45,629 bases of DNA. It comes from Chitinophaga pinensis. Its GTDB lineage: Bacteria > Bacteroidota > Bacteroidia > Chitinophagales > Chitinophagaceae. Position 1 is the first letter of the stretch, and every line of letters begins with the position of its first letter. The stretch lies in assembly GCA_945872085.1 (NCBI GenBank), contig CAMBYG010000007.1:1-45629 (forward strand). The letters run 5' to 3'. Position numbers and translations under genes: made by a program. Below the pieces are notes generated by a model that was not told the DNA's origin, ran no database searches, and worked only from the letters and a program-made list of their open reading frames with translations. Below, in pieces: positions 27,901 through 45,629 of the stretch.

Positions 27901-30900
27901 ATTACCAATGCTAATAACTGTTCGGCTACTTCAGCAGCTACAATTGTAACTGTTAACCCAATTCCAACAGTAAGCATAGTTGCAAATAACATCAATCCTG
28001 TTTGTCCTGGTGATACCATAGCACTTACAGCAACTGCGAGTACTACGGTAACTTATGTATGGTTGCTTAATAATTCAGTGATTGCATCTAATGCATCAGA
28101 TTCAATTTACAAAGCATTTCAAGCGGGTTGGTATAAAGTAATTATTCAAGATGTAAATGGTTGTCAAAAAACATCCGATTCTATACAAGTTCAATTATTG
28201 ACACCTCCACCTGCAACAATAACAACTACTACTACTGCCATATGTCAAAATGATAGTACATTGTTATCTGCAAATGCAGGAACTGGATTTACCTATGAAT
28301 GGAATTTGAACGGTACTCCAATAACTGGAGCTACCAACCAAACTTTATATGTAAAAGTAGCAGGTGCTTATACGGTAAAAGTTATAAACGCAATTGGTTG
28401 CTCAGCTACTTCAGCTCAAACAATAATAACCGTTAATCCTTTACCATCTACTACGATTACTCCTGGTCCGTCTTTAAATCTATGCACAGGAGACTCTATA
28501 ATTTTACACGCTCCAGTAGCTACAGGTAATACCTATCAATGGTATCAAGGCGGTGTTCTTTTGCCTGGCGAAACAAATGATTCTCTAAAAGTATTAAACG
28601 GAGCAACCTACACAGTTAGAATTGTTAGTTCTTTCGGTTGTGTAGATTCTTCAAGTGCTGCAACTGTTACACAATATGCATTGCCTACGGTAACCATATC
28701 TCCAAATATTACTACATATAAATGTGATGGAGATACCTTGGTTTATGCTGCAAGTGGTACTGGTTTGACTTCTTATCAGTGGTATTACAATGGAGCGGCT
28801 ATTACTTTAAATGGTAATGGCACTACCTATGCCGCTACAACCGCTGGTTATTATCAAGTTGCAGCTACCAATTCTATAGGATGTATCGGTTATTCTGATA
28901 TTGATACTTTAATTTATAATCCTTTACCTACATTGCCAACGGCTAATACGCCTATTAACTATTGTTATGGAGCTACAACAGCGCAATTAAGTGCAACGGC
29001 TTCCGGTGTCAATACCTTGTTGTGGTTTACATCGGCAACAGGTGGTGTTGGTTCGGCTATCGCGCCTATACCATCTAATACGGTATCTTCTACCTATTAT
29101 GTAGCAGAAGTTACTCCTGCTGGTTGTGCTGGACCTCGTTTGCCGATTGTAGTAAATATACAGCCTCAAGCAACATTTACTTCTACCTTGATAGATTCGG
29201 TTTGCTCTGGCATGCCGTATTCTTATACTCCATTACCAAACCCAACAGCTACCTTAATTTATACTTGGGTTCGACCAGCTGTTCCAAATATTAGTAATGT
29301 TGCAGTAACTACTCCTATTAATAATAATATCAATGAAATTTTAATCAACACATCAGCAAATCCTGTTAATGTTACGTATATCTATACGATTAATAATTCG
29401 GGTTGTGTGAATACGGTTAATTTAGTAGTAAAAGTAAAACCTACTCCTAACTTAAGCAATCTACCGACAAACGCTAGCATATGTAGTGGTAGTCCATACG
29501 TATATACACCAACTAGTGCAACGGCAGGTACCACTTTCCAATGGACACGTGCAGCAGTAGTAGGGATTACTAATCCAGCGGTAACTACTCCAGTTATAGG
29601 TGGTATCAATGAAACATTAATAAATACTTTCCAAGTAATTAATCCGGTAACGTATTCTTATCAGCTTAATGCCGCTGGATGTATAAACACCATTGGGTTT
29701 ACATTAACTGTCAACCCAACACCAATATCTATTGCTACGGCTGCAGGACCTACAACTTTTTGTGCTGGTGGTAGTGTAGTTCTAAATGACTCTACCAATC
29801 TCACCACTGGATTTACCTATACGTGGAAAAATGGTATAAATACAGTAGGTACATCGGCTAGTTTAACCGTAACTGCTGCTGGTGTTTATACTTGTACAGT
29901 TACAAATACAGCTACAGGGTGTCAAACGGTTTCTAATGCTATAACCGTTACGGTTAATCCAGTTCCAACAATGACATTAAACACTACAACTCCTCTTACA
30001 TTTTGTCCTGGGGGTAGTGTTGTTTTAAATGCAAGTCCTATAACTGGTGTTACTTATCAATGGTATAAAAATTCTAATTTAATAACTGGTGCAAGTGCGA
30101 GTACCTATACCGCTAATCAGTCAGGGTCATATACTGTTGTTGGTACTTATCCTACAGGATGTTTTTCAAATCCATCAACTGCCAAAGTTGTTTTAGTAGA
30201 TACGCCTTATGCTATTATTGCACCGGTAGGTAATGTAAATTTATGTTCGAATGAAGTATTAACTGCAACTGCAAATACGGGTACTGGTTTTACTTACCAA
30301 TGGTTTTTAAATGGAGTTGCAATACCTGTAGCTACGGCTAGTTCTTATACCATTTCACAAACAGCTGTGGGTTCTACATTCCCTTATACTGTAAGAGTTA
30401 CTAATGCAACAGGTTGTTTCACTACATCATCTGCATTGAATGTAACTGTAGTTGCAATTCCTACAGTGAGTATTGTAGCTAATGGGCCAACAACGTTCTG
30501 CTTTGGTAATAATGTATTGTTAACTTCAACAGCTACGGGTGTTAATATAACCTATCAATGGAAATTTAATGGAACAGATATTCCTGGAGCAACAGCGTCT
30601 TCTTATTACGCAACCACAACAGGAACGTATACTTGTCAAGTTTCTAATGTAAACAACTGTAAAGTTATTTCCAATGGTATTCCAATAATAAATAATCAGC
30701 CGGTTGCTACTATTGCTAATACTACATCATTAACCTTCTGCAATGGTGATAGTGTAATATTATATGGTAATAGCGGGGTGGTATCTTATCAATGGAATTT
30801 GAATGGTGCTCCAATCCCAGGCGCTACCAATCAAAACTATGTAGCTTATGTAAGTGGATCATATACATTAACAACAGTTAATACCTCTAACTGTATTCAA

Positions 30901-32118
30901 ACATCTACACCTAAAGTGGTAAATGCAGTGAATGCTCCGATAGCGGTAGTTGCTCCAAGTGGACCAACAAGCTTCTGCCAAGGATTGAATGTTACCTTAA
31001 CAGCTAATTCAGGTGTTGGGTATACTTACCAATGGTTATCGAATGGTGTTCCAATAGCTGGTGCAACAGCAATCAGCTATACAACGGTTAGTGCAGGTAA
31101 TTATTCCGTTGTGGTTAAAAACTCAAATAATTGCAGTACTGTTTCTTCTATTATTGTGGTGACTACTTATGCTAATCCAACAGTTACAATAGCTGCAGGT
31201 GGAACTACTAATATTTGTAATGGAGATAGTGTTTTATTATCGGCTACGGCAACTGCAGGGGTAAGTTATCAATGGTTTTTAGGTAATGTTCCAATTGTTA
31301 ATGCAACGAGTTCTAATTATATGGCTAAAGTAGCTGGTATATATACCGTTAAAGTAACTAATGTGACCAATTGTTCTACAACATCAGCTTCAATTACAGT
31401 AACCGTTAAAGCTAGTCCTACTGCATATATTACTTATAATTCACCGCTTACCTTCTGCGATGGTAGTTTGGTAGTACTTACAGCTGTGGTTGGAAATAAT
31501 GTAACTTATCAATGGAGAAAAAATGGAGTTGCTATTCCAGGAACATCAGCGCCATCTTATAATGCAACTCAAACGGGTACTTACACCTTATTTGCTACCA
31601 ATGTACTAACAGGTTGTTCTGCAAATTCATCTGCGGTACAAGTAGTTGTTTTCCCAATTACAACACCTATAATTGTAAGAAATGGTATCGTATTCTCTAC
31701 CACTACAAATTACGCTTCTTATCAATGGTTATTGAATAGTGTACCTATTCTTGGTGCTACTTCGCAAACCTATACAGCAGTTGCTAATGGTACTTACAGA
31801 GTTAAAGTTAAAGATGCTAATGGATGCGAATCTTTCTCAGATCCAGAATTCTTATATGATTTAGGTGTAAATAATACTTCTAATGTAGCTGCTCAAATTA
31901 AATTATATCCTAATCCTACAGATGGCGTTGTTCATATTGATGCACCATTATCAGTTCAGGTAGTTGTTAGAGATTATACAGGAAGAGTTATTATAGAAAC
32001 AGAAAATACCAATTTAATTGATTTAACTAACCATGCAGATGGTATGTATATGGTATTTATTAATGACTTAAATGGCAATACAATAAAAGTAGAGAAATTA
32101 ATGAAATCTACCAGGTAG
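24913..32118 (+). CDS. Giant SBBP/Ig-repeat surface protein with type A T9SS signal
   Basis: The 2401-residue product starts with an export signal (about 1-25). Residues about 33-245 match the DUF7948-type domain that precedes SBBP repeats in Bacteroidota. Seven SBBP blades follow (about 248-696; YLGGSGYEE, YFGGSDFDY, YYGDSGDDQ, YLGGTGDDA, FMGGTFADG, YFGGTGNDE, YVGAFGSDV). Then come twenty units of about 80 residues (about 697-2322): mostly Ig-like with one Cys before a G-D/G-S turn and another after TNxxGC, one Ig_7-like unit and two PKD-like units. The C-terminal domain from about 2323 (IKLYPNPTDG ... DGMYMVFI) is a type A T9SS sorting signal. It is predicted to be a secreted or surface adhesin. 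Ligand unknown. It probably forms a single-gene unit ended by the hairpin at 32134. Confidence 0.88.
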   Translation: MPNYLRSGKLVLIASLIGMQSVFALDKKVDDKIHANHTGFVENSGQIIDQHQKVNPSVRYLLSSKGLNMQLRNNGFSYDLWKPTAAKKGAYQLHRLDFNFINANPSAEIVTDHHAIASYTYGKEHLKASSFGKVTYKNVWKNIDIVFHENNGKPKYDFIVRPGAQLADIAFAINGAQEITASASGLILKNSISTLTETIPASYLTTKESTKKIIVNFEKKADGSFGFKTNERIPENATLTIDPTPNRLWATYLGGSGYEEIFGTSIATSGDIFVTGQTSTISYIATTGAVISSINGAVDAFVAKYNVAGNLVWFEYFGGSDFDYATSISKNITNTLAIAGYTSSSTGLATMGAAFGGGIDAFVAKLDTAGTVLWSRYYGDSGDDQANGVAVSADGSVYVGGLTTSTANIATAGAQQTSYGAGAGVSDGFVAKFNGASGATTWATYLGGTGDDAINGIATDAINNVYVVGNTTSTNNIASTIPAAQQAANAGLQDAFLVKYVAATGVRSFGTFMGGTFADGANAVHVVDFLSSVYIGGFTNSSFLATAGSYKSTLGIGQEAIVARFNITTGLRISSSYFGGTGNDEIRAINSDASNNVIIAGSTNSPNAIASASSFQNTYTNGLDGFVVRMSNTLTALQWGTYVGAFGSDVIRSIGVGTNVIAAGGFTTSNSGIVTSNGNQQTYGGTTDGMLVYIDALGCVAITNPNTATAICTGDSLTILANTGTGYQYVWLVNGTASLNDTLSTIKIGAAATYSVKVTNAIGCIETSTPIAVSLNPLPTATITPASATTICNGTNVVLNANTGTGLTYQWYKDSILIAGATASSYAATLAGNYMVKVTNATSCFAFSSPVAVVVIALPSATIGLLGSATICDGDSTELVATNGSGYSFQWNLNGTPISGAINQNYFSSASGSYTCTVTANGCSKTSTAKVITVNAAPTAIITPLSATSFCQGGSVTLSANLAAGNTYLWRKNGVIITGAFGSNYTTNSSGSYTVTITNANNCSATSAATIVTVNPIPTVSIVANNINPVCPGDTIALTATASTTVTYVWLLNNSVIASNASDSIYKAFQAGWYKVIIQDVNGCQKTSDSIQVQLLTPPPATITTTTTAICQNDSTLLSANAGTGFTYEWNLNGTPITGATNQTLYVKVAGAYTVKVINAIGCSATSAQTIITVNPLPSTTITPGPSLNLCTGDSIILHAPVATGNTYQWYQGGVLLPGETNDSLKVLNGATYTVRIVSSFGCVDSSSAATVTQYALPTVTISPNITTYKCDGDTLVYAASGTGLTSYQWYYNGAAITLNGNGTTYAATTAGYYQVAATNSIGCIGYSDIDTLIYNPLPTLPTANTPINYCYGATTAQLSATASGVNTLLWFTSATGGVGSAIAPIPSNTVSSTYYVAEVTPAGCAGPRLPIVVNIQPQATFTSTLIDSVCSGMPYSYTPLPNPTATLIYTWVRPAVPNISNVAVTTPINNNINEILINTSANPVNVTYIYTINNSGCVNTVNLVVKVKPTPNLSNLPTNASICSGSPYVYTPTSATAGTTFQWTRAAVVGITNPAVTTPVIGGINETLINTFQVINPVTYSYQLNAAGCINTIGFTLTVNPTPISIATAAGPTTFCAGGSVVLNDSTNLTTGFTYTWKNGINTVGTSASLTVTAAGVYTCTVTNTATGCQTVSNAITVTVNPVPTMTLNTTTPLTFCPGGSVVLNASPITGVTYQWYKNSNLITGASASTYTANQSGSYTVVGTYPTGCFSNPSTAKVVLVDTPYAIIAPVGNVNLCSNEVLTATANTGTGFTYQWFLNGVAIPVATASSYTISQTAVGSTFPYTVRVTNATGCFTTSSALNVTVVAIPTVSIVANGPTTFCFGNNVLLTSTATGVNITYQWKFNGTDIPGATASSYYATTTGTYTCQVSNVNNCKVISNGIPIINNQPVATIANTTSLTFCNGDSVILYGNSGVVSYQWNLNGAPIPGATNQNYVAYVSGSYTLTTVNTSNCIQTSTPKVVNAVNAPIAVVAPSGPTSFCQGLNVTLTANSGVGYTYQWLSNGVPIAGATAISYTTVSAGNYSVVVKNSNNCSTVSSIIVVTTYANPTVTIAAGGTTNICNGDSVLLSATATAGVSYQWFLGNVPIVNATSSNYMAKVAGIYTVKVTNVTNCSTTSASITVTVKASPTAYITYNSPLTFCDGSLVVLTAVVGNNVTYQWRKNGVAIPGTSAPSYNATQTGTYTLFATNVLTGCSANSSAVQVVVFPITTPIIVRNGIVFSTTTNYASYQWLLNSVPILGATSQTYTAVANGTYRVKVKDANGCESFSDPEFLYDLGVNNTSNVAAQIKLYPNPTDGVVHIDAPLSVQVVVRDYTGRVIIETENTNLIDLTNHADGMYMVFINDLNGNTIKVEKLMKSTR
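25655..26990 (+). repeat. Seven SBBP repeats (predicted seven-bladed propeller)
   Basis: Seven units of roughly 60 residues share a Y-x-G-G-x-G-x-D-like start, a central GDIFVTGQT/GSVYVGGLT strand and a DAFVAKYN/DGFVAKFN strand. The last unit is the most divergent. Seven units would close one beta-propeller. Confidence 0.75.
27003..31860 (+). repeat. Twenty tandem Ig/PKD-like protein repeats
   Basis: Units of 78-92 residues each, typically with Cys near residue 12, a YQW core Trp, a SY/NY position, a GxYTV strand and a second Cys. Unit 9 (about 28930-29172) is of the YCxG...APIPS type; units 10-11 (29173-29724) are PKD-like and close copies of each other. Unit 20 (31655-31860) lacks the first Cys. 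Confidence 0.75.
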
Positions 32119-32184: not shown

Positions 32185-33246
32185 CTATTTAAAAAGGTTA
32201 TTATATTTTAAGCTTCTATCATTTAAGTATATAGATTTTATTTCGTCTAGTTGCTTATTAAATAAATTTTTAAGAATTAGGGGATTGCTAATTTTTATAT
32301 TGGTCATCCACATAAATATCCAACCAATGAGCTCTCTGTTGATACCGCAATGCAATTTTAATTGCCAATTGCCGGAAGGGAGTTTTGAGAATTCTTGTGA
32401 GGGATGCCAATGGTACTGTCTTAAAAAATTACCTGTAACTGAAGATATTTCTAAAACGATATCATAGGTTTTTTCGTCTATATTTTGCGTTACTCCAAAT
32501 CGTTTAAGCAACTGTTCTTCTGCTTTTTTGCTAATTTCTTTATGATTAAAACTTTTATCGGTCATTTCGTAAGAATTGATTTTTGATATGTCTATAACCA
32601 TGAATTCGTCTTTTGTTTCAGAAAAACCGGCTACAAAGTGGTTGCCTCTATGGTATATCAACTTAATGCACTTAAATAAAAAAGGGGCTATTTTTTTCAT
32701 AGTAATAGATGTGGCATCACCATCTATGCTGTCAATCCATAGTTTTTTATAATTAGCAATACACCATATAACGGCATCAATTTTATCGTCATATTTTTCA
32801 TCATGCGATACTTCATAAAAATTTGTTCTGGTATTCTGATGGTCTTGCATGAATGTATAGAAGGTGCTATTAGTTTTAATGAAACTATTATACACTTTTC
32901 TAAATTTTAGCATTGAATCAGCTCTGTTTGCCATCAAATATTTTGGAGATGCAGAACGGGTTAGCTGAAAAGCTGCAATATCCCTTTTACTTAAGTTTAA
33001 TTCAGCACTATCTACTATAATTCTGTATGTTTTTCTATTATGTTCACCTACAGCAATGGATAGCTGCTCGGTTGGTCTTAAATAATGTTTTTGTATGCAA
33101 TCCAAATCTCTATATACCTGACGACTACTGCATTCAACATTACGGCTTTTAAATTCGTCAACAATGTTATTTATAGACAATGGTGCTTTATTTATTAATT
33201 CAAATATTAGTTGAATCCGTTCTAATTGAGAAATTGAATTGGGCAT
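32185..33246 (-). CDS. WYL-domain transcriptional regulator with N-terminal HTH
   Basis: The 353-residue product has an N-terminal winged helix-turn-helix (about 5-65, with SSRQVYRDLDCIQ as recognition helix), a linker (about 80-165), and a WYL domain (about 170-260) whose core reads KLIYHRGNHFVAGF in place of a canonical W-Y-L. A WCX-like C-terminal part (about 265-340; YDIVLEISSVTGNFLRQYHWHPSQ) follows. WYL proteins are ligand-sensing DNA-binding regulators, often tied to defence or stress genes. No defence gene is nearby. It stands between two giant adhesin genes and could control either, which is inference. TAACTTTA lies close to its start (33252-33259). Confidence 0.8.
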   Translation of the reverse strand: MPNSISQLERIQLIFELINKAPLSINNIVDEFKSRNVECSSRQVYRDLDCIQKHYLRPTEQLSIAVGEHNRKTYRIIVDSAELNLSKRDIAAFQLTRSASPKYLMANRADSMLKFRKVYNSFIKTNSTFYTFMQDHQNTRTNFYEVSHDEKYDDKIDAVIWCIANYKKLWIDSIDGDATSITMKKIAPFLFKCIKLIYHRGNHFVAGFSETKDEFMVIDISKINSYEMTDKSFNHKEISKKAEEQLLKRFGVTQNIDEKTYDIVLEISSVTGNFLRQYHWHPSQEFSKLPSGNWQLKLHCGINRELIGWIFMWMTNIKISNPLILKNLFNKQLDEIKSIYLNDRSLKYNNLFK

Positions 33247-33475
33247 AATTATAAAGTTATGTTATGAAAATTATATTTGTATAATTCTTTATTATAATTT
33301 ATTTTAATAATAAATATAGTATTGAATATCAACATCATTCAAAATATTTCTTAATAAAGAAATATTGTTATTTATTATTATATATGAGGTGTTTTATTTA
33401 TTTTTACGTAAACAAGCGCAGCAAAACCAAATCGTTTTTTAACCAATATTTAAGAATTTTAAGTAAGCCTCTAAA
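33247..33475. promoter_or_regulatory. AT-rich divergent intergenic region
   Basis: These 229 bases separate the WYL gene and the type B giant gene and must hold both promoters. TATTTTTA (33400-33407) is the best -7 candidate for the plus-strand gene, one base off consensus, giving a leader of about 65 bases. An imperfect AT-rich inverted repeat lies around 33343-33367. No RNA gene or open frame was recognised. Confidence 0.4.
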
Positions 33476-36400
33476 ATGAAGTTTGAAATTTATTATTTGA
33501 AGAGGAGTACTTTGTTATTTCTTTTTTCAATTTGTACAGTTTTTGTTTATGCGCAACAAAATACACCTGCTTATGTGCCTACTTCAGGCTTGGTAGGTTG
33601 GTGGCCATTTAGTGGTAATGCAACAGATAGTTCTGGAAATGGAAATAATGGAACGGTAAACGGAGCAACTCTAACAACCGACCGATTTGGAACCGCTAAT
33701 AAGGCTTATAATTTTAATGGCACAACTGATTTTATCTCTGTACCGCATTCTACCTTTTTTAATTTCCAAAGTATAAATAAATTTACTTTCTCTTATTGGT
33801 TGAAAGCAACTACTTTGTCTAATGCACAAATTAGTTTACTTCTAAGTAAACAAAGTAGCTTTGGTGCAAGTCAACTTGGGTTTAATGCTAATATAGAAGC
33901 AAATTACACTTGTAATTTTAGGATTCAAAATGGTGCATCTTCAAATGCATATTCCATTTCTTCAGTAAGTAATACTTTAAATACAAATACTTGGTATCAT
34001 GTAGTGCAAGTATGGTCAGGTAGTCAGGGTTCTGTCTATATTAATGGAAATCTGGTTGCACAAACCTCTGGCATTTCCGTTGTTGGAGATAACAACCTTG
34101 ATTTATTAATTGGAAAACCGAATTGGGTTGCAGGTAATGTAAAAAATTTTGCTGGTCTTATTGATGATATCGGAATATGGAATAGAGCCCTTTCTTCGTG
34201 TGAAGTTCAAGCATTATATACTGGTGTAACATCATCTAATACGGCTATTCCTACAGCACCTGTGGTTGCTAATATTTCGTATTGCCAAAATACAACTGCT
34301 GTTGCATTGTCGGCAACTGCAGCTGCAACTAATACGCTATTGTGGTATAATACAGCTAGTGGTGGTACCGGTAGTGCTACAGCACCCATACCGTCTACAT
34401 CTACAGTTGGCAATGTGACGTATTATGTTAGTCAAAAAAACACCTGTGGTATTGAAGGGCCAAGAGCCGCCTTGACTGTCACCATACATCCTTTAGCTAC
34501 AGCACCAACAACCGTTAATAGTAGTTATTGTCAAAATGCTACGGCAACTTCACTCGCTGCAACTACTTTATTAGGCGCAACACCCCAATGGTACACATTG
34601 GCAAGTGGAGGTACAGGATCTGCAATAGCACCTATACCTAGTACTAATGCTATTGGATCTACTACTTATTATGTTTCCGCAATTTCTAATTTTAGTTGCG
34701 AATCGGCTACTCGAACTCCAATAACGGTTAGCGTCAATCCAAATCCTATAGCGCCAACAACATCTCCAATAAGTTATTGTCGGTATGCTTCTGCTGTTCC
34801 TTTGGTAGCAACGGCTAGTGCCGGTAATACCTTAAAATGGTATACGGTGTCTACAGCAGGTATAGGATCCGTAATTGCACCAACACCGTCAACCAATACT
34901 GTAGGTGTGTTTACTTATTATGTTTCTCAAATTAATTCCTTTGGTTGTGAAAGCTCTAGAACCCCATTGCCAGTAACTATATTTGCATTGCCTGCAAGTC
35001 CTTCCGTATCTAATTTAAATTACTGCATTGGAGCAACGGCTTCCGTATTAACAGCGGTAGGTTCTGCAATTAAGTGGTATCAATTTTCTGTTGGGGGTAC
35101 TAGTACTTCTACTGCGCCAACACCAAGCACAGCTGGTGTTGGTTCTTTAAACTATTATGTTACACAAACAGATGCTAATAATTGTGAAAGTAATAGAGCG
35201 CAATTAACGGTATTTATCAACCCATTGCCCAATAAACCTACTGTAACCAATGTAATTTACTGCCAAAATGCAAGTACTTCAGCTTTGAATGCAAACCCTG
35301 ATTTAGGAAATACTTTGCAATGGTATATGTCTAATACTGGAGGAGTGGGTAGTGCTTCGGCACCAATACCTACTTCAGTGTCATTGGGTATTACAAATTA
35401 TTATGTTAGTCAGATAGATATTAATAATTGTGAGAGTTTTAGAGAAGTATTGAGTGCAACAATTGTAGCAAATCCATCTGCGCCTACAGTGTCTAATGCT
35501 GTTTATTGTGTCAATGCTACTTCAAGTCCATTGAGTGCAACTGCTAGTTCTGGAAATGCATTGCAATGGTTTTCTAATAACAATGGAACAGGAATTCCTT
35601 CTGCAGCAACGCCTATCCCAAACACAACAAATGCAGGTTTATTTAATTATTACGTCAATCAAATTTCTACTAATAATTGTGTAAGTCCAATAGCTACTAT
35701 CAATGTTCTGGTAAATCCAAATCCGGCACCACCATCGGTATCTAATATTGCTTATTGTAAAGATGCAACTAGTGCACCATTAACAGCAACTGCAACAGCT
35801 AATAACACCTTAAGATGGTATACGCAAGCAATAGGTGGTTCGTTCTCTTCAACTGCTCCAACTCCAAGTACAGCCCTTGTTGGTCAACAAAATTATTATG
35901 TTTCTCAAGTTAACGCGAGTACATGCGAAAGTGCAAGAGCATTAATTACGGTTACTATTAATCCTATTCCAGCTTCGCCTGTAGTTGCTAATGTGTCTTA
36001 TTGTATAGGAGCAACAAATGCAGTAGCGCTATCTATAGCTAATCCATTAAGCCAAGTAGTCAATTGGTATGCACAAGCTAGTGGTGGTGTGGCTTCTAAT
36101 CAAGCACCTATTCCAAGCACTCTTGTAGCAGGTACAACTAATTATTATGTATCCTTTACATCTGGTAATGGATGTGAAAGTGCTAGATCGGTTATCAGTT
36201 CAACTATTTTAAACCTACCCAATAGTCCTGTTGTTACCAATGCAACACTTAGTTATTGTCAAAATGCAATTGCCTCTCCACTAGTTGCCACTGCATTGTC
36301 TAATCATAGTTTGAGGTGGTATACGGCAGCTACAGGTGGTATTGCATCGGCAATTCCGATAACACCAACTACATCTGCTATAGGCACCACAAATTATTAT

Positions 36401-39400
36401 GTATCACAAGTGAATAGTATTGGATGTGAAAGTAATAGAACTGTAATTCCTGTAAATGTTGTTGGCACGCCGGCAGCGCCATCTGTAAGTCCGGTGGTAT
36501 ATTGTCAAAATGCAAGTACTACTTCATTAACAGCAGCTGCATTGGCTAATTTTACTTTAAATTGGTATACTACATTAACTTCTTCGCCTGCATTAAATTC
36601 GGCGCCAACCCCTAGTAGTGTTACTCCTGGTATTACAACATATTATGTTTCGCAGATTGGTAGTAATGGTTGTGAGAGTGTTCGACAACCAATAGTAGTT
36701 ACGATTAATCCAACTCCTTCAGCGCCTGTAACAGCACCGGTTGTATATTGTCAAAATTATGCACCAAGTGTACTAACGGCTATGCCAACTGGCGCTAATT
36801 CGCTCACTTGGTATTTGAGCAATACTACCCAGTTAGGTTCAGCTTCACCATTTACACCCAGTACCACTGTAGTAGGAACGACAACTTATTTTGTAAGTCA
36901 AACAACTAGTTTAGGATGCGAAAGCCCTATGGCTTCTCTATCAGTTACGGTTAATCCTACACCAATTGCACCCATTACAGCTCCTGTGGTATATTGTCAA
37001 AATTCAAGTGCTGTAGCTATTTCAGCGCAAGCACTTGCAGGGCATACGATCAAATGGTATAATCAATTATTAGGCGGTACGCTATATAGCACAACGCCTA
37101 TACCATCTACTGCAACAGTGGGTATTCAACAATATTTTGCAGCTCAAATTTCAAGTTTAGGTTGTGAGGGACCGAGGACTTTATTGACTGTTACCATCAA
37201 TCCAACGCCAAGCGGACCCATTGTTAATCCAATTTCCTATTGTCAGTTTGACAATGCATTGAGTTTGCAATCTACTATTACAGTTGGTAATGCGCAATTA
37301 TGGTATACACAAGCCCTGGGCGGTAGTGGAGTAATTACGGCTCCAATACCAAGCACTGCAGTTGCGGGCACTTTTAGTTTTTATAATACACAGACCAATT
37401 CCTTTGGTTGCGAAAGTCCGAGAGCCCAATTAGTAGTTACGGTAAATCCTAAACCTAGTGCTCCAATAACTTCGAATGCTACCTATTGCCAAATGCAAGT
37501 GCCAGCTAGTATTTTATCATTAGTACAAGCAACGGGTTCGTTAAAATGGTATACATCTTCAACAGCTAATGTTGGTTCTGCCACTACACCGCTAATCAAC
37601 ACTACTGTTGCAGGCACTGTTAGTTTTTATGTTACGCAGACTACTAGTTTTGGATGTGAAAGTGATAAATCGCTTATCACTATCACTGTAAATCCTAAAC
37701 CAGTTAAGCCTATTTTTACCAACAATTATGTGTATTGCCAGGGGCAAACACCAAGTGCAATTGCAGCTACTGCAAGTTCTGCTCATACATTAAATTGGTA
37801 TACTTCCATTAATGGTATTGCCTCGTTAACTACTCCAATTATTAACACATCAATTGCCGGCATTAGTAAATATTATATCGCCCAAGTCAATAGTATAGGA
37901 TGTGAGAGTGATAAAGATTCAATTATAATAACCATCAATCCAACGCCTGCTGCACCTTCGGTAAGTAATAATTCATATTGTCAGTTTTATATTGCAACCC
38001 CATTGACTGCTATACTTGCTCCTAATTGTGCTCCCTTATGGTATGCTGCACAGGCGGGAGGAAGCCCATTAGCTGCTGCTCCTATTCCAAACACATCAAT
38101 CTTAGGCAATCAATCTTTTTATGTAAGTCAAATTACTAGTGCGGGTTGTGAAGGTCCGCGATCGACCATAACTACTTCAATAGTTGCTGTGCCTAATCCA
38201 CCTTTAGTAAGTCCTGTTGTGTATTGTCAGTACGATACAGCAGCGCCATTGCAAGCTACACTTAATGGATCTGGATTAAGCATTAGATGGTATAATAGTG
38301 CAATAGGGGGCAGTTATACGACGATAGCACCCACTCCAAATTCCAATATTTCTGGCATTCAAAATTTTTATCCTTGTCAAGTAAATAGTGTTGGTTGTGA
38401 AAGCCAAAGAGCCAACTTAGCTGTAACAATTAACTATAGGCCTTTAGCGCCAGGCGTTGTGCCAGTTATCTACTGCCAAGGAGATACTGCTCTTGCCTTA
38501 ACCGCATCGTCTTGTTCCAATTGCACCTTGTATTGGTGGGACAATATGACGGTAGTTTCACCCTATGTAACCACACCTATTCCTAGTACCCTAAATGCAG
38601 GAACAAAAACTTATTATGTAAATCAAATTTCTCCTCAAGGATGTGTTGGTCCTAAAACGGGTTTGTTAGTTACTGTTAATCCAACACCTTTAGCACCAAT
38701 AGTGACAAATCCATCTATATGTCAACAAAATAATTCGACGTTAGTGAGTCCCTATGTAGCCTTAAGTGCAAACTGTACTTATCGTTGGTATACCGCTGCT
38801 GTTGGAGGCTTGTATAGTGTTATTGTTCCTTCGGTGAGTTTAACCACGGTGGGCACGTATGTAAATTATGTATCACAGATTAATAATTTTGGATGTGAAA
38901 GCCCACGTGATTTAGAAGCGATTACGGTTTTGCCAACGCCATTAGCTCCTAATTTAAGTAATGTAAATTATTGTCAAGGCGCCACGGTACCAACTTTAAA
39001 TTTCATAGCAGGGCCTGGCAATTATCTTACATGGTATACAAGTGCTAATGGTGGAATGGGTAACACGCAAACACCTTCTTTAAATACCAATACACCAGGC
39101 ATTACAAATTACTATGTAAGTCAAACGACTACAATGGGATGCGAAAGTGCACGTGATACGGTTGTATATCAAGTGGCCCCAACACCTTCTGTTCCGGTGG
39201 TTGCAAACAGTACATATTGTCAAGGTGTTACAGCTAGTCCTTTAAGTGCTACAGCGCAAATAGGATGCACATTAAGATGGTATGCTAATGCAAGTGGAGG
39301 TACTCCTCAATCGGTTACGCCTATACCAAGCACAAACAATAATGGTGTGTTTTATTTTTATGTAAGTCAGATAAATGCTGCTGGATGCGAAAGTCAGCGT

Positions 39401-41179
39401 GCTCAAATTATCGTTACCGTCAATCCAACACCTATGGCGCCGGTAACCAATAATTATGTGTATTGCCAATTTGATAATGTGACGCCCCTTTCGGCTATTG
39501 GAACAAGTGGTGCTACAATGCTATGGTATACGCAAGTAAACGGAACAGGCTCTAATGTTATTCCAAGCTATACAAGCACCGTGCCAAACACGTTTAATTT
39601 TTATGTTTCCCAACTTTCACCCTTAGGTTGCGAGAGTGCTAAGTCTTTATGTTTGGTAACAATTCATCCTAAGCCTAGCATGCCTGTAGTTACTAATTTA
39701 AGCTATTGCCAGGGCGATACGATTCCTCCATTAACTGTGCAAGGAAGTTCAATATCAAATGTAATTAAATGGTATGCTAGCGCATCTAGTGTTTTATATA
39801 ACTCAAATACACCAATGTTGTCAAGTGCAATAGCAGGGAATACCACATATTTTGTTTCGCAAACAAGTGCGAACGGATGCGAAAGTGATCGTGCTTCATT
39901 TACAGTAATCATCAATACCAAGCCGGTATTAGCTATCACACAAGCAGGACCTATTAATTTGTGCGCTGGACAGAGTTCTTTATTGACTACTACTACCAAT
40001 ATTAGTCCATTGGCTTATGCTTGGTATCAACAGTCAACCGGTATTTTAGGGGCAACAAATAGTTCATATTCGGTTTCATCTACTGGAACATTCTTTGTGG
40101 TAGGAACTACAATCAATGGTTGCAAAGACACAAGTCAATTTGTAAATGTTACTGTAAATCCATTGCCAAGTGGTACAATTATAGCGAGAGATCCAATAAG
40201 GTTTTGCTATGGTAAAAAGGCTACGCTAGCTGTTGTAAATCCTAATTTGAATTTTACGTATCAATGGTTATATAATGGATTGCCATTGAGTGGGGCTACG
40301 GATACTATTTATGATGCTACCAATCCGGGATTATATTCCGTAAGTATAAAAAATGCATTTAATTGTATTAAAATTACTAATGCAGTATTAATTATAGTAG
40401 ATACGTTGCCTGCTGTTTCTATTAATATGCCAAGTGCTATTGATGCTTGTGAGGGAACAGAACTTCAACTAGTAGCTAATTTAAATGCCAATTTAAGTTA
40501 TCAATGGTATAATAATTTAATATCCATAAATGGCGCAACAAGCAATATTTTAAAAGTAAGCACATCGGGTATTTACCAAGTAGATGTTGTAAATAGTTAT
40601 GGTTGTAAAAACTCATCAAATACAACAACGGTATCTTATTACCCATATCCTAGTATAACCATAACTAAGGATACTTTTTTGATGCCAGGTACTTATTTTA
40701 CATTAATGCCAAACGTAATCAATTACACCCAATTGGCATGGCAACCCAATACTGTTAATCTATCTTGTTTCAATTGTTTAAACCCCGCATTTACTGTCTT
40801 TGAACCAACCATGTTATATATCATAGCAACCAATACTGGCGGTTGTTCTAGTGTAGATTCTATTAGAGTTAGAACAGGGTGTGATGCTTCTTTGTTATTC
40901 ATACCTAATACATTCACACCTAATGGTGATGCTAATAATGATCGTTTTTATGTTTCTGGAAAAGGGATAAAAGAAGTAGGTAAAATAGTTGTTTATAATA
41001 GATGGGGTGTAAAAGTTTTTGAAAATTTAAATTTTCAAGTCAATGAACCATCTAGTGGTTGGGATGGCAATTTTAATGGTACAGAATTGACAAGTGATGT
41101 ATTTACGTATTATGTAGAAGCAATTTGTACGAACGGCGATAAAATATCAAAATTCGGAGACATTAGTTTAATAAGATAA
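33476..41179 (+). CDS. Giant LamG/Ig_7-repeat surface protein with type B T9SS signal
   Basis: The 2567-residue product starts with a signal peptide (cleavage near VYAQ, about 26). A LamG/concanavalin-like domain covers about 35-247 (GLVGWWPFSGNATDSSGNG ... LIDDIGIWNRALSSCEV). Then come 23 repeats of about 82 residues (about 260-2151; pattern YCQN ... LxWYT ... APIPST ... YYVSQ ... GCES ... VTVNPTP), three different Ig-like units (about 2152-2395), and a linker. The final 99 residues are a gliding-motility/CHU_C type B sorting domain (FIPNTFTPNGDANND, YNRWGVKVFE, WDGNFNG, FTYYVEA). It is predicted to be T9SS-secreted to the cell surface. The PorP/SprF gene begins 2 bases after the stop, the usual partner of type B cargo. 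Confidence 0.9.
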   Translation: MKFEIYYLKRSTLLFLFSICTVFVYAQQNTPAYVPTSGLVGWWPFSGNATDSSGNGNNGTVNGATLTTDRFGTANKAYNFNGTTDFISVPHSTFFNFQSINKFTFSYWLKATTLSNAQISLLLSKQSSFGASQLGFNANIEANYTCNFRIQNGASSNAYSISSVSNTLNTNTWYHVVQVWSGSQGSVYINGNLVAQTSGISVVGDNNLDLLIGKPNWVAGNVKNFAGLIDDIGIWNRALSSCEVQALYTGVTSSNTAIPTAPVVANISYCQNTTAVALSATAAATNTLLWYNTASGGTGSATAPIPSTSTVGNVTYYVSQKNTCGIEGPRAALTVTIHPLATAPTTVNSSYCQNATATSLAATTLLGATPQWYTLASGGTGSAIAPIPSTNAIGSTTYYVSAISNFSCESATRTPITVSVNPNPIAPTTSPISYCRYASAVPLVATASAGNTLKWYTVSTAGIGSVIAPTPSTNTVGVFTYYVSQINSFGCESSRTPLPVTIFALPASPSVSNLNYCIGATASVLTAVGSAIKWYQFSVGGTSTSTAPTPSTAGVGSLNYYVTQTDANNCESNRAQLTVFINPLPNKPTVTNVIYCQNASTSALNANPDLGNTLQWYMSNTGGVGSASAPIPTSVSLGITNYYVSQIDINNCESFREVLSATIVANPSAPTVSNAVYCVNATSSPLSATASSGNALQWFSNNNGTGIPSAATPIPNTTNAGLFNYYVNQISTNNCVSPIATINVLVNPNPAPPSVSNIAYCKDATSAPLTATATANNTLRWYTQAIGGSFSSTAPTPSTALVGQQNYYVSQVNASTCESARALITVTINPIPASPVVANVSYCIGATNAVALSIANPLSQVVNWYAQASGGVASNQAPIPSTLVAGTTNYYVSFTSGNGCESARSVISSTILNLPNSPVVTNATLSYCQNAIASPLVATALSNHSLRWYTAATGGIASAIPITPTTSAIGTTNYYVSQVNSIGCESNRTVIPVNVVGTPAAPSVSPVVYCQNASTTSLTAAALANFTLNWYTTLTSSPALNSAPTPSSVTPGITTYYVSQIGSNGCESVRQPIVVTINPTPSAPVTAPVVYCQNYAPSVLTAMPTGANSLTWYLSNTTQLGSASPFTPSTTVVGTTTYFVSQTTSLGCESPMASLSVTVNPTPIAPITAPVVYCQNSSAVAISAQALAGHTIKWYNQLLGGTLYSTTPIPSTATVGIQQYFAAQISSLGCEGPRTLLTVTINPTPSGPIVNPISYCQFDNALSLQSTITVGNAQLWYTQALGGSGVITAPIPSTAVAGTFSFYNTQTNSFGCESPRAQLVVTVNPKPSAPITSNATYCQMQVPASILSLVQATGSLKWYTSSTANVGSATTPLINTTVAGTVSFYVTQTTSFGCESDKSLITITVNPKPVKPIFTNNYVYCQGQTPSAIAATASSAHTLNWYTSINGIASLTTPIINTSIAGISKYYIAQVNSIGCESDKDSIIITINPTPAAPSVSNNSYCQFYIATPLTAILAPNCAPLWYAAQAGGSPLAAAPIPNTSILGNQSFYVSQITSAGCEGPRSTITTSIVAVPNPPLVSPVVYCQYDTAAPLQATLNGSGLSIRWYNSAIGGSYTTIAPTPNSNISGIQNFYPCQVNSVGCESQRANLAVTINYRPLAPGVVPVIYCQGDTALALTASSCSNCTLYWWDNMTVVSPYVTTPIPSTLNAGTKTYYVNQISPQGCVGPKTGLLVTVNPTPLAPIVTNPSICQQNNSTLVSPYVALSANCTYRWYTAAVGGLYSVIVPSVSLTTVGTYVNYVSQINNFGCESPRDLEAITVLPTPLAPNLSNVNYCQGATVPTLNFIAGPGNYLTWYTSANGGMGNTQTPSLNTNTPGITNYYVSQTTTMGCESARDTVVYQVAPTPSVPVVANSTYCQGVTASPLSATAQIGCTLRWYANASGGTPQSVTPIPSTNNNGVFYFYVSQINAAGCESQRAQIIVTVNPTPMAPVTNNYVYCQFDNVTPLSAIGTSGATMLWYTQVNGTGSNVIPSYTSTVPNTFNFYVSQLSPLGCESAKSLCLVTIHPKPSMPVVTNLSYCQGDTIPPLTVQGSSISNVIKWYASASSVLYNSNTPMLSSAIAGNTTYFVSQTSANGCESDRASFTVIINTKPVLAITQAGPINLCAGQSSLLTTTTNISPLAYAWYQQSTGILGATNSSYSVSSTGTFFVVGTTINGCKDTSQFVNVTVNPLPSGTIIARDPIRFCYGKKATLAVVNPNLNFTYQWLYNGLPLSGATDTIYDATNPGLYSVSIKNAFNCIKITNAVLIIVDTLPAVSINMPSAIDACEGTELQLVANLNANLSYQWYNNLISINGATSNILKVSTSGIYQVDVVNSYGCKNSSNTTTVSYYPYPSITITKDTFLMPGTYFTLMPNVINYTQLAWQPNTVNLSCFNCLNPAFTVFEPTMLYIIATNTGGCSSVDSIRVRTGCDASLLFIPNTFTPNGDANNDRFYVSGKGIKEVGKIVVYNRWGVKVFENLNFQVNEPSSGWDGNFNGTELTSDVFTYYVEAICTNGDKISKFGDISLIR
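34252..39930 (+). repeat. 23 tandem Ig_7-like repeats of about 82 residues
   Basis: I counted 23 consecutive units by the YC and GCES positions. Each has two Cys about 55-60 residues apart (first in YCQ, second in GCES; a few units have GCEG, GCVG or NCVS). The DNA is well diverged between units, so the array is old and does not look like recent slippage. Confidence 0.8.
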
Positions 41180-41181
41180 AT

Positions 41182-42213
41182 ATGAAGAGGATTTTATTAA
41201 GTATAGGTTTTATTTTTTCTGCTGCGCAATTTGCGTCAGCACAAGATCCTAATTTGTCTCAGACCAATGAGATTGCTTTATTGCGAAATCCCGCATTGCT
41301 TGGAATGTTTTCTTCAGATTTTATAATCGGTATACAACATAGAAATCAATGGAATCAATATAATTCGCCTTATGTCACGTCAGGTTTAATATCAGAATCT
41401 AGGCGATATGTGGGAAGCACAAAAGGAGATTATTTTAGTTATGGGTTAACCATATTAAATGATAAGTCGGGTAGTATTGAAATGAATCGTTTCTCTTTTA
41501 ATGCTTCATTGGCTTATAATAAATTATTGAATGCATATAGCAATACTTACCTTACCGTAGGCAGTGGTTTGGCATGGGTAGATCAAAGTTTTGACGCTAC
41601 TAAAATGACTTTTTCAAGTCAATATGTAAATGGTTTATTTGTATCTACTAACCCGAGTGGAGAGTCTTTTATTGTTAACAAGAAATCTTATGTAAGCTTG
41701 AATGCAGGCGTGAGCTTACTTACCAGTTTAAATAAAGAGCATAGTTCGAAAATGTATATTGGTGCGGCTATGTTTCATTTAAATAGACCTGTGGTGCAGG
41801 GCAATAAATCTACTGAAGATTTTAGAATCCAGTCTAGAATGGTAGCAAGTATTGGGCTGCAATTACATGCTTCAGATTTTATTTCCTATTCATTTTTCGG
41901 AAATTATCAAAACCAATTACCTTTTGATGAGCTTTTAGTTGGTGGAATGATACATCGTGCATTTAAAGACAAAAAACAAAATACAAGATGTACCCTTGGT
42001 TTAGGATTAAATTGTAGAATAAACGATGCATTCATTCCTGTTATTAAATATGAAAATGACGGTTTTAAATGTACGCTTTCTTATGATCATAATACCAAAT
42101 TTGCAGCTTTTGATAAGAATAGATTTGGCGCAATAGAGTTTTCATTTTATGTAAAGGGTATGTTTAAAGACAATCCAGCAATTGTTAGCCCTGAAATTAA
42201 TCCATCGTTTTAA
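41182..42213 (+). CDS. PorP/SprF family T9SS outer-membrane protein
   Basis: The 343-residue product has a signal peptide (MKRILLSIGFIFSAAQF..., cleavage near ASAQ) and the family start QDPNLSQTNEIALLRNPALLGMF, followed by IGIQHRNQWNQYNSPYVTSG. The rest is a predicted 14-strand-like barrel with many aromatics (YFSYGLTILNDKSGSIEMNRFSFNASLAYN). PorP/SprF proteins are T9SS components; the SprF type is needed for export or attachment of the neighbouring type B cargo such as SprB. Position right after a type B giant gene and in an overlap (TAATG) with the next adhesin gene supports this role. Confidence 0.92.
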   Translation: MKRILLSIGFIFSAAQFASAQDPNLSQTNEIALLRNPALLGMFSSDFIIGIQHRNQWNQYNSPYVTSGLISESRRYVGSTKGDYFSYGLTILNDKSGSIEMNRFSFNASLAYNKLLNAYSNTYLTVGSGLAWVDQSFDATKMTFSSQYVNGLFVSTNPSGESFIVNKKSYVSLNAGVSLLTSLNKEHSSKMYIGAAMFHLNRPVVQGNKSTEDFRIQSRMVASIGLQLHASDFISYSFFGNYQNQLPFDELLVGGMIHRAFKDKKQNTRCTLGLGLNCRINDAFIPVIKYENDGFKCTLSYDHNTKFAAFDKNRFGAIEFSFYVKGMFKDNPAIVSPEINPSF

Positions 42214-45200
42214 TGGCTAAAAGATTTATATATATTATTGCATTTATGCTATTGCAGCTGGTTTCTTTTGCACAGACACCGGTTTGGTTACCTATTTCAA
42301 ATCTAATAGCATGGTATCCGAATGCGGGTAATTTTATAGATAGTAGCAATAACGGATTTAATGGGACTAATTACGGAGCAGTAGCAACAACAGATAGATA
42401 TAATGTTAGTAATAGAGCATTTTCTTATGGCTTATCAAATTGCAATACGTATGCTCAAGCAAGCATAAATACAAATGCAATTACCAATGCTTCGTCTATA
42501 TCTTTTTGGTTTTACTTAAATCCAGCTGTTTGTTCTTCGCCTACTATTTTGCAATTGCATAATGGTTGTTCATCTTGTATTGGAAATTTTGATGCATCAT
42601 GGAATACTACTTTAAATAGTTTTATTATTAAACATAAATTAACGGCTGCTATTACTGTTGCAGACACTGTTTCCACAATGGCTTCGGGTATTTGGTATCA
42701 TGTGGCTTATGTAAATAATGGCATTAATGCTAAATTTTACATAAATGGTGTGCTCCATAAAACTACGCCTAGTTTAACAAGCTTTAGTCTAGGCAGTTCT
42801 TTGGTTTTTGGTAAAAATTCATTTATACCCAATTCTAGTTTTAATGGCAAACTTGATGATGTTGCTGTTTGGAGTCGTGCTTTAACACCTTGCGAGGTAA
42901 ATACTTTATACGAAAGTATTTCTCAACCTTTTGCTAGTTTATATAGAATTGCTGGTTCTACAGCTTCGGCAATTGCTGCAAATAATGGTATGCCCTGGAT
43001 GGTCGATTCCACTATAACAGTAAATACAACTATAGTCCATACGGCTGCTCGCGTTGCTATTAATACTAATTTTAACGCTGGCGATGTATTAAGTGCAAAC
43101 AATCTGCCTACAGGTGTATCGGGATCATTTAATACGACTAGTGGTATACTTACTTTTACGGGTAATTTAACGCCATCTAATGTACAGGCAGCTTTTAGAG
43201 CGGTTAAGTTTGCTACTACCTCTTCTGTATTGTTACCAAGATTTTTGACGTTCAGTTTAGGTGATGTTTATTCAAATGCAAATGGTCATTTTTATAAAAT
43301 AAATGTTTCCAATCAAGATTGGCAAAGTGCAAAATTAGCAGCTCAAAGTACAGCCTATTTTGGTATGCAAGGATATTTAGCAACAGTTACCTCGGCATTA
43401 GAAAATAATTTCATTAAAAATATTACGCCTTATACCTCTGCATGGTTAGGTGGAAGTGATGAGTTTAATGCTATTAATTCTGTTTTGGGTACTTCCTTAT
43501 ATGCCAATCAATCTGTATCAGAAAATAAATATTACTGGGTAAATGGTCCGGAAGCTGGTTTGCAATTTTCCCAAAATAATTTTCCTTCAACTACGCAACC
43601 TGGCATGTATGCCAATTGGATGAACGGTGAACCTAATAATGCAGGTGCCAATGAGCATTATGTGCAATTACAAACTGCTGCAGGTCAATGGAATGACATG
43701 CCGAATTCGAGTATTTTAATGCCTTCTGTTGTTGAATATGGAGAGATGGGTTTGGATAGTTGTATTATTGCTGCGTTTACTAAGCGCGTTAATGTTATTG
43801 TCAATACTGCTCCTACAATAACTCCGGGATATGTAGTTTATAACTGTGCCGGGGCAACAACACAATTTACTATTACCGTAAAAGACCAGGAGACAAGTGC
43901 ATCTGGTTTAATGCTAAGCCTTGCGCATACCAATCCAGGAATTGTAGTTACTAATTCATTGCAAAGTAGTGGAATAGACACCCTTCGCACTATAACCTTT
44001 ACATCATATAATGCCCTCAGTGGATTAGATACATTAATCATTACAGTTGTTGATTCTTCTGGTTTATCAACAACAACCAATTTCCCAATTGTAGTCGACT
44101 TTATTACAAATAATAACCCAATTATTGAAGATACCATAAGAGCATGCGGTAGTGTTGTGCAAGTTACAGCAGCAAGTAATTTAGGAACTTATTTGTGGAA
44201 TTCGGGGCATACTACAAATAGTTTTAATGCTGTAATAACTAATAAATATACCTTGCAAATAACAAAAGGTGCTTGTATTGTTAACGACACCGTTATAGTA
44301 GGGCTTACAAAAGCTAATATTCTGCAAGGTGATACCATGGTAATTTGTAGTGGTTCAACAGCTGGTATAAGTGTTGAATTACCAACTTGTTCTTATTTGC
44401 AAAATACAATAATTGCTGGCTATCAGTATAAGGGTTCATTCAATGGAAGTTATTATTACATGGCAGATGTTCCAACTTGTTGGGTAACGGCTAAAAATAA
44501 TGCGCAAAATGCATACCCTTGTGCCTATTTAGTTTGTATTGATAATAATGCCGAACAACAATTTGTTCAAAATTTAAGTGCTAATAATATCTGGATTGGT
44601 TATTATTTAGATGCATTTAATAATTGGAAATGGGTTAATGGTCAGGCAACTTCTTATACTAATTGGAGAGTGGGATCTCCCAATGGTGGTAGTATAGAAC
44701 CTTATGCACATATTTTGACAGATAGTTGTGTGGGGCCAAATCAATGGGATGATTTTAAAAACTGTGCGGTCAATAGTGTTTGTGATTCTAATATTTATGG
44801 AGTATTAGAAATTAAACCAGGAAATTATATTACCCAATTAGTTGCGCCAATTACATATTTATGGTCGAATGGCGCTACAAGCGCTACTATAAATGTTTCA
44901 CCTACACAAACTACTACCTATTGGGTAAAGGTGAGTAATGGGATTACTTATTGTATGGATACCATTGTGGTAGTGGTGAAACCATCCCCTTCAGCAGTTA
45001 TACAATCAATTAATGCGCCAATTTTCTGTCAAGGCAATTCAGTGGTTATGACAGCAAGTACGGGTTTGAATTATACCTATCAATGGTTTTACAACAATCA
45101 AATAATACCTAATGCTACTGCGAGTACATACAGTGCAACTCAATCGGGTAGTTATTTTGTAAAAGTTAACTTAAATGGATGCGTTAAAAATTCAAATGTT

Positions 45201-45629
45201 ATAACAACAACATTATTAGCTTGGACGAATCCAATTATCAATGCTACAGGTAATACCTCTATTTGTTTTGGCGATAGTGTTTTGTTATATTCCAATACCA
45301 ATCCTTCATTTATTTATAAATGGTATAGAAATGGAGTGCTTGTACCTGGTGCAACTACATCTCAGTATAAAGCATACCAATCTGGCGATTATAAAATTGA
45401 GATTTCTAATGCGGCTAATTGTTCTTTATTTTCCAACGTAATCAGCGTAGTGGTGGCGCAGCCAATTTTAAATAGTACACAGCCTAGTGGTCCAATAATC
45501 AATATCTGTAAAGACAATTCTTTAATTCTAACGGCAGCCCTAACACCTAATGTAAGCTACCAGTGGTATCAGAATAATGTACCAATAAGCGGAGCTACCA
45601 GTAATCTATTTAGTATCACATTGCCGGGT
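42213..45629 (+). CDS. Giant LamG/C-type-lectin/Ig-repeat surface protein, N-terminal part
   Basis: The ATG overlaps the stop of the PorP/SprF gene (TAATG) and the frame stays open to the window end, so 1139 residues of a longer protein are visible. Order: signal peptide (MAKRFIYIIAFMLLQLVSFA, cleaved before or after Q21); LamG domain (about 28-235, ending LDDVAVWSRALTPCEV); a beta module (about 240-350); a first C-type-lectin-like domain (about 358-510) with EPN at 473-475 and WND at 493-495; two further beta modules (about 528-705); a second lectin-like domain (about 735-868) with SPN at 822-824 and WDD at 845-847; then Ig-like repeats from about 927. EPN with WND is the calcium- and mannose-type sugar site in this fold, so glycan binding is plausible for the first. 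A C-terminal T9SS signal is expected beyond the window. Confidence 0.85.
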   Translation, partial: MAKRFIYIIAFMLLQLVSFAQTPVWLPISNLIAWYPNAGNFIDSSNNGFNGTNYGAVATTDRYNVSNRAFSYGLSNCNTYAQASINTNAITNASSISFWFYLNPAVCSSPTILQLHNGCSSCIGNFDASWNTTLNSFIIKHKLTAAITVADTVSTMASGIWYHVAYVNNGINAKFYINGVLHKTTPSLTSFSLGSSLVFGKNSFIPNSSFNGKLDDVAVWSRALTPCEVNTLYESISQPFASLYRIAGSTASAIAANNGMPWMVDSTITVNTTIVHTAARVAINTNFNAGDVLSANNLPTGVSGSFNTTSGILTFTGNLTPSNVQAAFRAVKFATTSSVLLPRFLTFSLGDVYSNANGHFYKINVSNQDWQSAKLAAQSTAYFGMQGYLATVTSALENNFIKNITPYTSAWLGGSDEFNAINSVLGTSLYANQSVSENKYYWVNGPEAGLQFSQNNFPSTTQPGMYANWMNGEPNNAGANEHYVQLQTAAGQWNDMPNSSILMPSVVEYGEMGLDSCIIAAFTKRVNVIVNTAPTITPGYVVYNCAGATTQFTITVKDQETSASGLMLSLAHTNPGIVVTNSLQSSGIDTLRTITFTSYNALSGLDTLIITVVDSSGLSTTTNFPIVVDFITNNNPIIEDTIRACGSVVQVTAASNLGTYLWNSGHTTNSFNAVITNKYTLQITKGACIVNDTVIVGLTKANILQGDTMVICSGSTAGISVELPTCSYLQNTIIAGYQYKGSFNGSYYYMADVPTCWVTAKNNAQNAYPCAYLVCIDNNAEQQFVQNLSANNIWIGYYLDAFNNWKWVNGQATSYTNWRVGSPNGGSIEPYAHILTDSCVGPNQWDDFKNCAVNSVCDSNIYGVLEIKPGNYITQLVAPITYLWSNGATSATINVSPTQTTTYWVKVSNGITYCMDTIVVVVKPSPSAVIQSINAPIFCQGNSVVMTASTGLNYTYQWFYNNQIIPNATASTYSATQSGSYFVKVNLNGCVKNSNVITTTLLAWTNPIINATGNTSICFGDSVLLYSNTNPSFIYKWYRNGVLVPGATTSQYKAYQSGDYKIEISNAANCSLFSNVISVVVAQPILNSTQPSGPIINICKDNSLILTAALTPNVSYQWYQNNVPISGATSNLFSITLPG

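Follow-up and report, generated by a model that had tools for sequence, protein, structure and literature searches.

A PorP/SprF gene between two giant adhesin genes in Chitinophaga pinensis: a probable mixed-class T9SS operon

The 45,629-base stretch of Chitinophaga pinensis DNA analysed here (the window) is the entire contig C7 of an assembly of 1.9 Mb in 95 contigs (G000). At its right-hand end, a PorP/SprF carrier gene stands between two giant genes in the same orientation. This raises the question of whether a single carrier serves cargo on both sides, as a sequence-only reading of the window had proposed, or whether the second giant belongs to a different class of T9SS substrate.

The three genes and their junctions

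Gene 1 (33476–41179, + strand) encodes a giant type B T9SS adhesin of 2567 aa, built from a LamG head, an Ig_7 array and a CHU_C tail. The N-terminus, judged by eye, resembles a Sec signal peptide. The LamG/concanavalin-like lectin domain covers residues 81–245 (33716–34210, + strand; Laminin_G_3, 83.3 bits), the array comprises 25 Ig_7 stretches, and the CHU_C/type B sorting domain lies at residues 2475–2555 (40898–41140, + strand). The type B assignment follows from both CHU_C (47.1 bits, cut-off 27) and TIGR04131 (46.9 bits, curated cut-off 35). After a spacing of 2 bases, read directly in the sequence, gene 2 (41182–42213, + strand) encodes a PorP/SprF family carrier of 343 aa, P0002. This protein scores 106.1 bits against TIGR03519, where the curated cut-off is 90.55, and its gene occupies the position characteristic of the family, directly 3' of a type B gene; a Pfam search of gene 2 returned no match. 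The stop codon of gene 2 and the start codon of gene 3 overlap by 1 base in the string TAATG (42211–42215, + strand). The visible part of gene 3 (42213–45629, + strand) encodes the first 1139 aa of a protein with a LamG domain at residues 79–229 (42447–42899, + strand; Laminin_G_3, 72.9 bits), a C-type-lectin-like module at about residues 239–543 (42927–43841, + strand), a Lectin_C match at residues 771–825 (44523–44687, + strand; 52.9 bits) and Ig repeats, with a sub-threshold match to Ig_2. The frame is open at its 3' end, and no secretion tail is visible because C7 ends inside the gene.

The analysis thus recovered the three open reading frames as previously described, together with the 2-base spacing and the overlapping TAATG, and the pairing of a type B cargo with a PorP/SprF partner was borne out by the profile matches and the spacing. 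The co-orientation of the genes and the two tight junctions likewise support the proposed operon-like order, and suggest that genes 1–3 are co-transcribed, with translation of gene 3 coupled to that of gene 2. A promoter search before gene 1, where the intergenic stretch runs from 33247 to 33475 (+ strand), gave no convincing candidate. On the left, the block is flanked by a gene of 353 aa on the opposite strand (32185–33246, − strand), presumably encoding a WYL-like regulator, which is conserved in the genome G002 and serves below as the synteny anchor. Beyond it lies another giant gene (24913–32118); its 2401-aa product combines DUF7948 with Ig repeats and carries a type A tail. We also considered whether the LamG heads of genes 1 and 3 arose by recent duplication, and found no support for this: the two are 31% identical, and LamG domains from G007 and G199 score higher against gene 3.

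Neighbourhoods of PorP genes in the family

How ordinary this arrangement is was assessed with home-made models of PorP and of both tail types, A and B, applied to the window and 100 fetched loci. Removal of one duplicate (L160) left 61 PorP genes, a set picked mainly by similarity to P0002 rather than at random. A same-strand type B gene lies directly upstream of PorP in 49 of the 57 cases with a visible upstream gene, and the gap amounts to 0 to 38 bases in 37 of these 49. The type B–PorP pair and its 2-base spacing are, consequently, typical. The downstream side was visible for 57 PorP genes as well; 37 have a same-strand follower, within 50 bases in 7 instances. Followers of at least 1000 aa on the same strand occur three times (in the window, G027:C31 and G013:C51), and only in the window does such a giant gene overlap the end of PorP by 1 base. 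As claimed in the sequence-only reading, the layout is unusual, at 1/57 in this similarity-chosen sample; its composition, however, is most likely type B, PorP and type A rather than two type B cargoes around one carrier, for the reasons given below. A literature search for a type A/type B operon in Chitinophaga found nothing, from which we do not conclude that the layout is unpublished.

The loci G027:C31 and G013:C51 resemble the present one in that PorP stands between two giant co-oriented T9SS genes. They differ in that the second cargo is a type B protein followed by a PorP of its own, and in the gaps after the first PorP, 243 and 63 bases as opposed to an overlap. Other followers of PorP were observed in the same survey. 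At L144 (G002:C29, 1–3220), a gene with a secreted-looking product begins on the same strand 98 bases after a type B tail and PorP and is truncated where the contig stops, possibly a second case of the layout. A family of 109–129-aa proteins, with a signal-peptide-like N-terminus and a type A-like tail, is encoded 110–213 bases 3' of PorP in four genomes (L167, L170, L180, L184). A related 155–176-aa protein, which we take to be peroxiredoxin-like, is found 3' of PorP in eight genomes (L169, L172, L174, L175, L179, L188, L191, L192).

The missing end of gene 3

The tail of gene 3 was approached via a DNA search of two genomes of the same genus, which returned a match on G002:C32. This contig carries, in order, the end of an ortholog of the upstream giant (93% over the last 628 aa of the gene at 24913–32118), a run of 100 N, an ortholog of the 353-aa gene (69% over 331 aa) and a gene that we assume to be recD-like; the stretch from the 353-aa-gene ortholog to the recD-like gene contains no N. 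In the G000 assembly, the counterpart of the latter, presumably recD-like as well, lies on contig C44 (73% over 599 aa). Window positions 32255–33293 correspond to G002:C32 12460–11422, and C44:4433–13403 to G002:C32 11269–2316, so that the two matched stretches lie about 150 bases apart in G002, with no N between them. Since the anchor and the recD-like gene are adjacent in G002, C44 emerges as the right-hand side of the block in G000. Neither genes 1–3 nor the frame at the start of C44 were found at the corresponding site in G002, where similarity to the window stops near position 33293, at the left boundary of the missing block. The block absent from G002 spans window position 33294 to C44:4432, with both edges intergenic.

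C44 starts in a same-strand, 5'-open frame of 1394 aa (C44:1–4185) that consists of Ig repeats and closes with a type A tail (TIGR04183, 34.1 bits, curated cut-off 23; PF18962, 35.2 bits, cut-off 27). TIGR04131 did not match this frame at E 0.01, and no PorP was found between the frame and the recD-like gene. A terminator-like hairpin of 14 pairs lies 3' of the frame (C44:4200–4230); the number of terminator-like matches in C44:1–5000, three, is not above that in shuffled sequence (mean 3.2). Taken together, the synteny that leads to C44 and the tail on its first frame indicate that gene 3 most likely continues into C44, across an unsequenced gap, and make a type A ending, and hence the PorV route, probable. 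In the sequence-only reading, the third protein was expected to end in a CHU_C/type B domain, and a type A signal was named as evidence to the contrary; it is the type A signal that the C44 frame carries, and the expectation therefore probably fails, insofar as the two contigs hold one gene.

The join itself was examined from both sides. The ends of C7 and C44 share no overlap (longest common string 9–10 bases), and the last 200 bases of C7 gave only short matches, and no second copy, on other contigs. The Ig repeats at the visible end of gene 3 are 41% identical to those on C50 and C27, as against 36% for C44. Because the C7–C44 gap is unsequenced, gene 3 could end within it, its tail unread, with a fourth, independent T9SS gene of the block already under way where C44 starts, a reading that the repeat similarity, which does not favour C44, leaves room for. 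We nevertheless consider it unlikely: a tail and a new start would both have to fit in the gap, and a comparable break in the same assembly lost little. The ends of C42 and C27 could be compared with a 1678-aa protein of G002 (G002:C40), the first 423 residues of which match C42 at 86%, and the loss at this break amounts to only about 49 residues.

Contig ends other than C44 were also weighed. Of the T9SS frames left 5'-open by a contig end, four are similar to the final 310 aa of visible gene 3 (C27, C44, C59 and C69). C27 was rejected as the continuation, because over 1206 aa it shares 89% identity with the end of the same 1678-aa protein, and C59 and C52 were rejected in view of matches of 82% and 93%, respectively, to the ends of other G002 proteins. 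The 5'-open frames with type A-like tails on C20, C41 (start), C84 and C86 did not match this 310-aa stretch; C41 has another open frame at its opposite end, as judged from the coordinates.

C69 bears on the proposal that gene 3 is also a type B gene and that the single PorP serves both giants. It carries an Ig-bearing, 5'-open type B tail, left dangling at the contig end and followed by PorP, and could thus in principle supply the ending which that proposal calls for; the position of gene 3 and its overlap with PorP are in line with it, as is the precedent of Fjoh_1677, discussed below. However, C69 is 86% identical over 595 aa to the C-terminal end of a G002 protein of 3516 aa, and a PorP follows in G002 too, which disfavours C69 as the continuation of gene 3. 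The 1000 aa that precede the C69-like part of the 3516-aa protein were not found in the G000 assembly, so that a small probability remains for C69. Apart from the synteny with C44, relatives of gene 3 argue against the proposal. A scan of genome contigs with P0003, the gene 3 product, yielded one distant locus (L120, 32%). Across 195 family genomes, the C-type-lectin-like module turned up outside the own genome in 15 proteins, from 14 genomes including G153, G115 and G013, at 32–47% identity. The tail is visible in 14 of the 15, the exception being a G155 protein cut by the fetched stretch, and is of type A in all 14 (13 passing TIGR04183 and one PF18962). These type A proteins share the module with gene 3, but most are about 520–1930 aa in length, and the home-made model found no PorP in their fetched surroundings, whereas gene 3 has a PorP just upstream. 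Matches to the LamG domain of gene 3 only came from three further genomes; two of these proteins are complete and without a T9SS tail in Pfam, and the third is cut by a contig end. The shared-carrier proposal is thus probably wrong, and we regard it as quite improbable. Highly improbable, finally, is a tandem arrangement in which gene 3 is a type B gene with its own PorP behind, for which G027:C31 and G013:C51 as well as the type B tail and PorP on C69 offer models, since the stretch that separates the C44 frame from the recD-like gene contains no PorP and the contig chain would need C69 or an unseen contig.

Carriers, anchoring and the role of the overlap

The routes that the two giants would take can be projected from Flavobacterium johnsoniae. 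As described in PMC12618676, PMC9143113 and PMC12635249, PorV takes type A substrates in this organism and cognate PorP/SprF carriers take type B substrates; the carriers stay on as anchors of their cargo, and accept other type B tails only when these are similar. The genome analysed here encodes PorV (NF033710, 470 bits, cut-off 250). On these grounds P0002 most likely carries the gene 1 product, and PorV that of gene 3. Sharing of one PorP/SprF protein by several type B cargoes is already on record: PMC12618676 describes Fjoh_1677 as the carrier of three orphan type B substrates. It is a precedent for several clients per carrier; those clients are, however, type B proteins with tails more than 44% identical, whereas the likely tail of gene 3 is of type A. 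Among the type B tails of the own genome, the closest to that of gene 1, at 50% identity, comes with a PorP of its own. The second closest (42%; C19, at 27 kb) has no PorP beside it and might, speculatively, be a further client of P0002.

The combination of genes 1 and 2 resembles SprB–SprF of F. johnsoniae, where, in the account of PMC12618676, a giant, repeat-rich type B cargo is likewise encoded immediately upstream of its carrier; here, unlike there, another giant gene follows the carrier. A second difference lies in the carrier itself. According to PMC12635249, the C-tail of SprF contains a Cys-X-Cys motif that bonds to GldK for gliding, its cysteines being required for movement and not for export. 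The last 40 residues of P0002 (C-tail, 42160–42210) contain no cysteine. In the set of 61 PorP proteins, selected mainly for their resemblance to P0002, a cysteine occurs within the last 40 residues of 57 and within the last 25 of 55, and 49 show the pattern CP..[FYW]; P0002 is one of the four that lack a C-tail cysteine. Most surveyed proteins have one such cysteine, as compared to two in SprF. Given that the SprF cysteines serve movement, the gene 1 product (P0001) may be anchored on the surface but not moved.

Our preferred interpretation, which we hold to be probable, is thus that of an adhesin operon in which type B gene 1 is paired with its own PorP/SprF gene and gene 3 continues into C44, ending in a type A tail and using the PorV route. 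Gene 2 would carry the gene 1 product out and anchor it on the surface. Gene 3 would be translated from the same message through the stop–start overlap, giving a second giant LamG/C-type-lectin adhesin of at least 2533 aa including the C44 part, which would leave by the same translocon with the general carrier PorV. The overlap with PorP may accordingly set the expression of gene 3 rather than its choice of carrier. Considerably more tentative, and in our estimate doubtful, is the extension of this interpretation to function, i.e. that a single message yields two giants whose LamG heads are similar and which act jointly on one ligand, the first retained by its dedicated, cysteine-less PorP and so kept off the moving track, the second by the PorV/type A machinery.

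The cysteine-less P0002 offers a test of the recent claim that carrier cysteines tether adhesins to the gliding track. If the join of C7 and C44 is right, the locus also cautions against taking a gene adjacent to PorP as a client of that PorP, and would provide a natural case in which to probe whether translational coupling to PorP matters for cargo of the other class.
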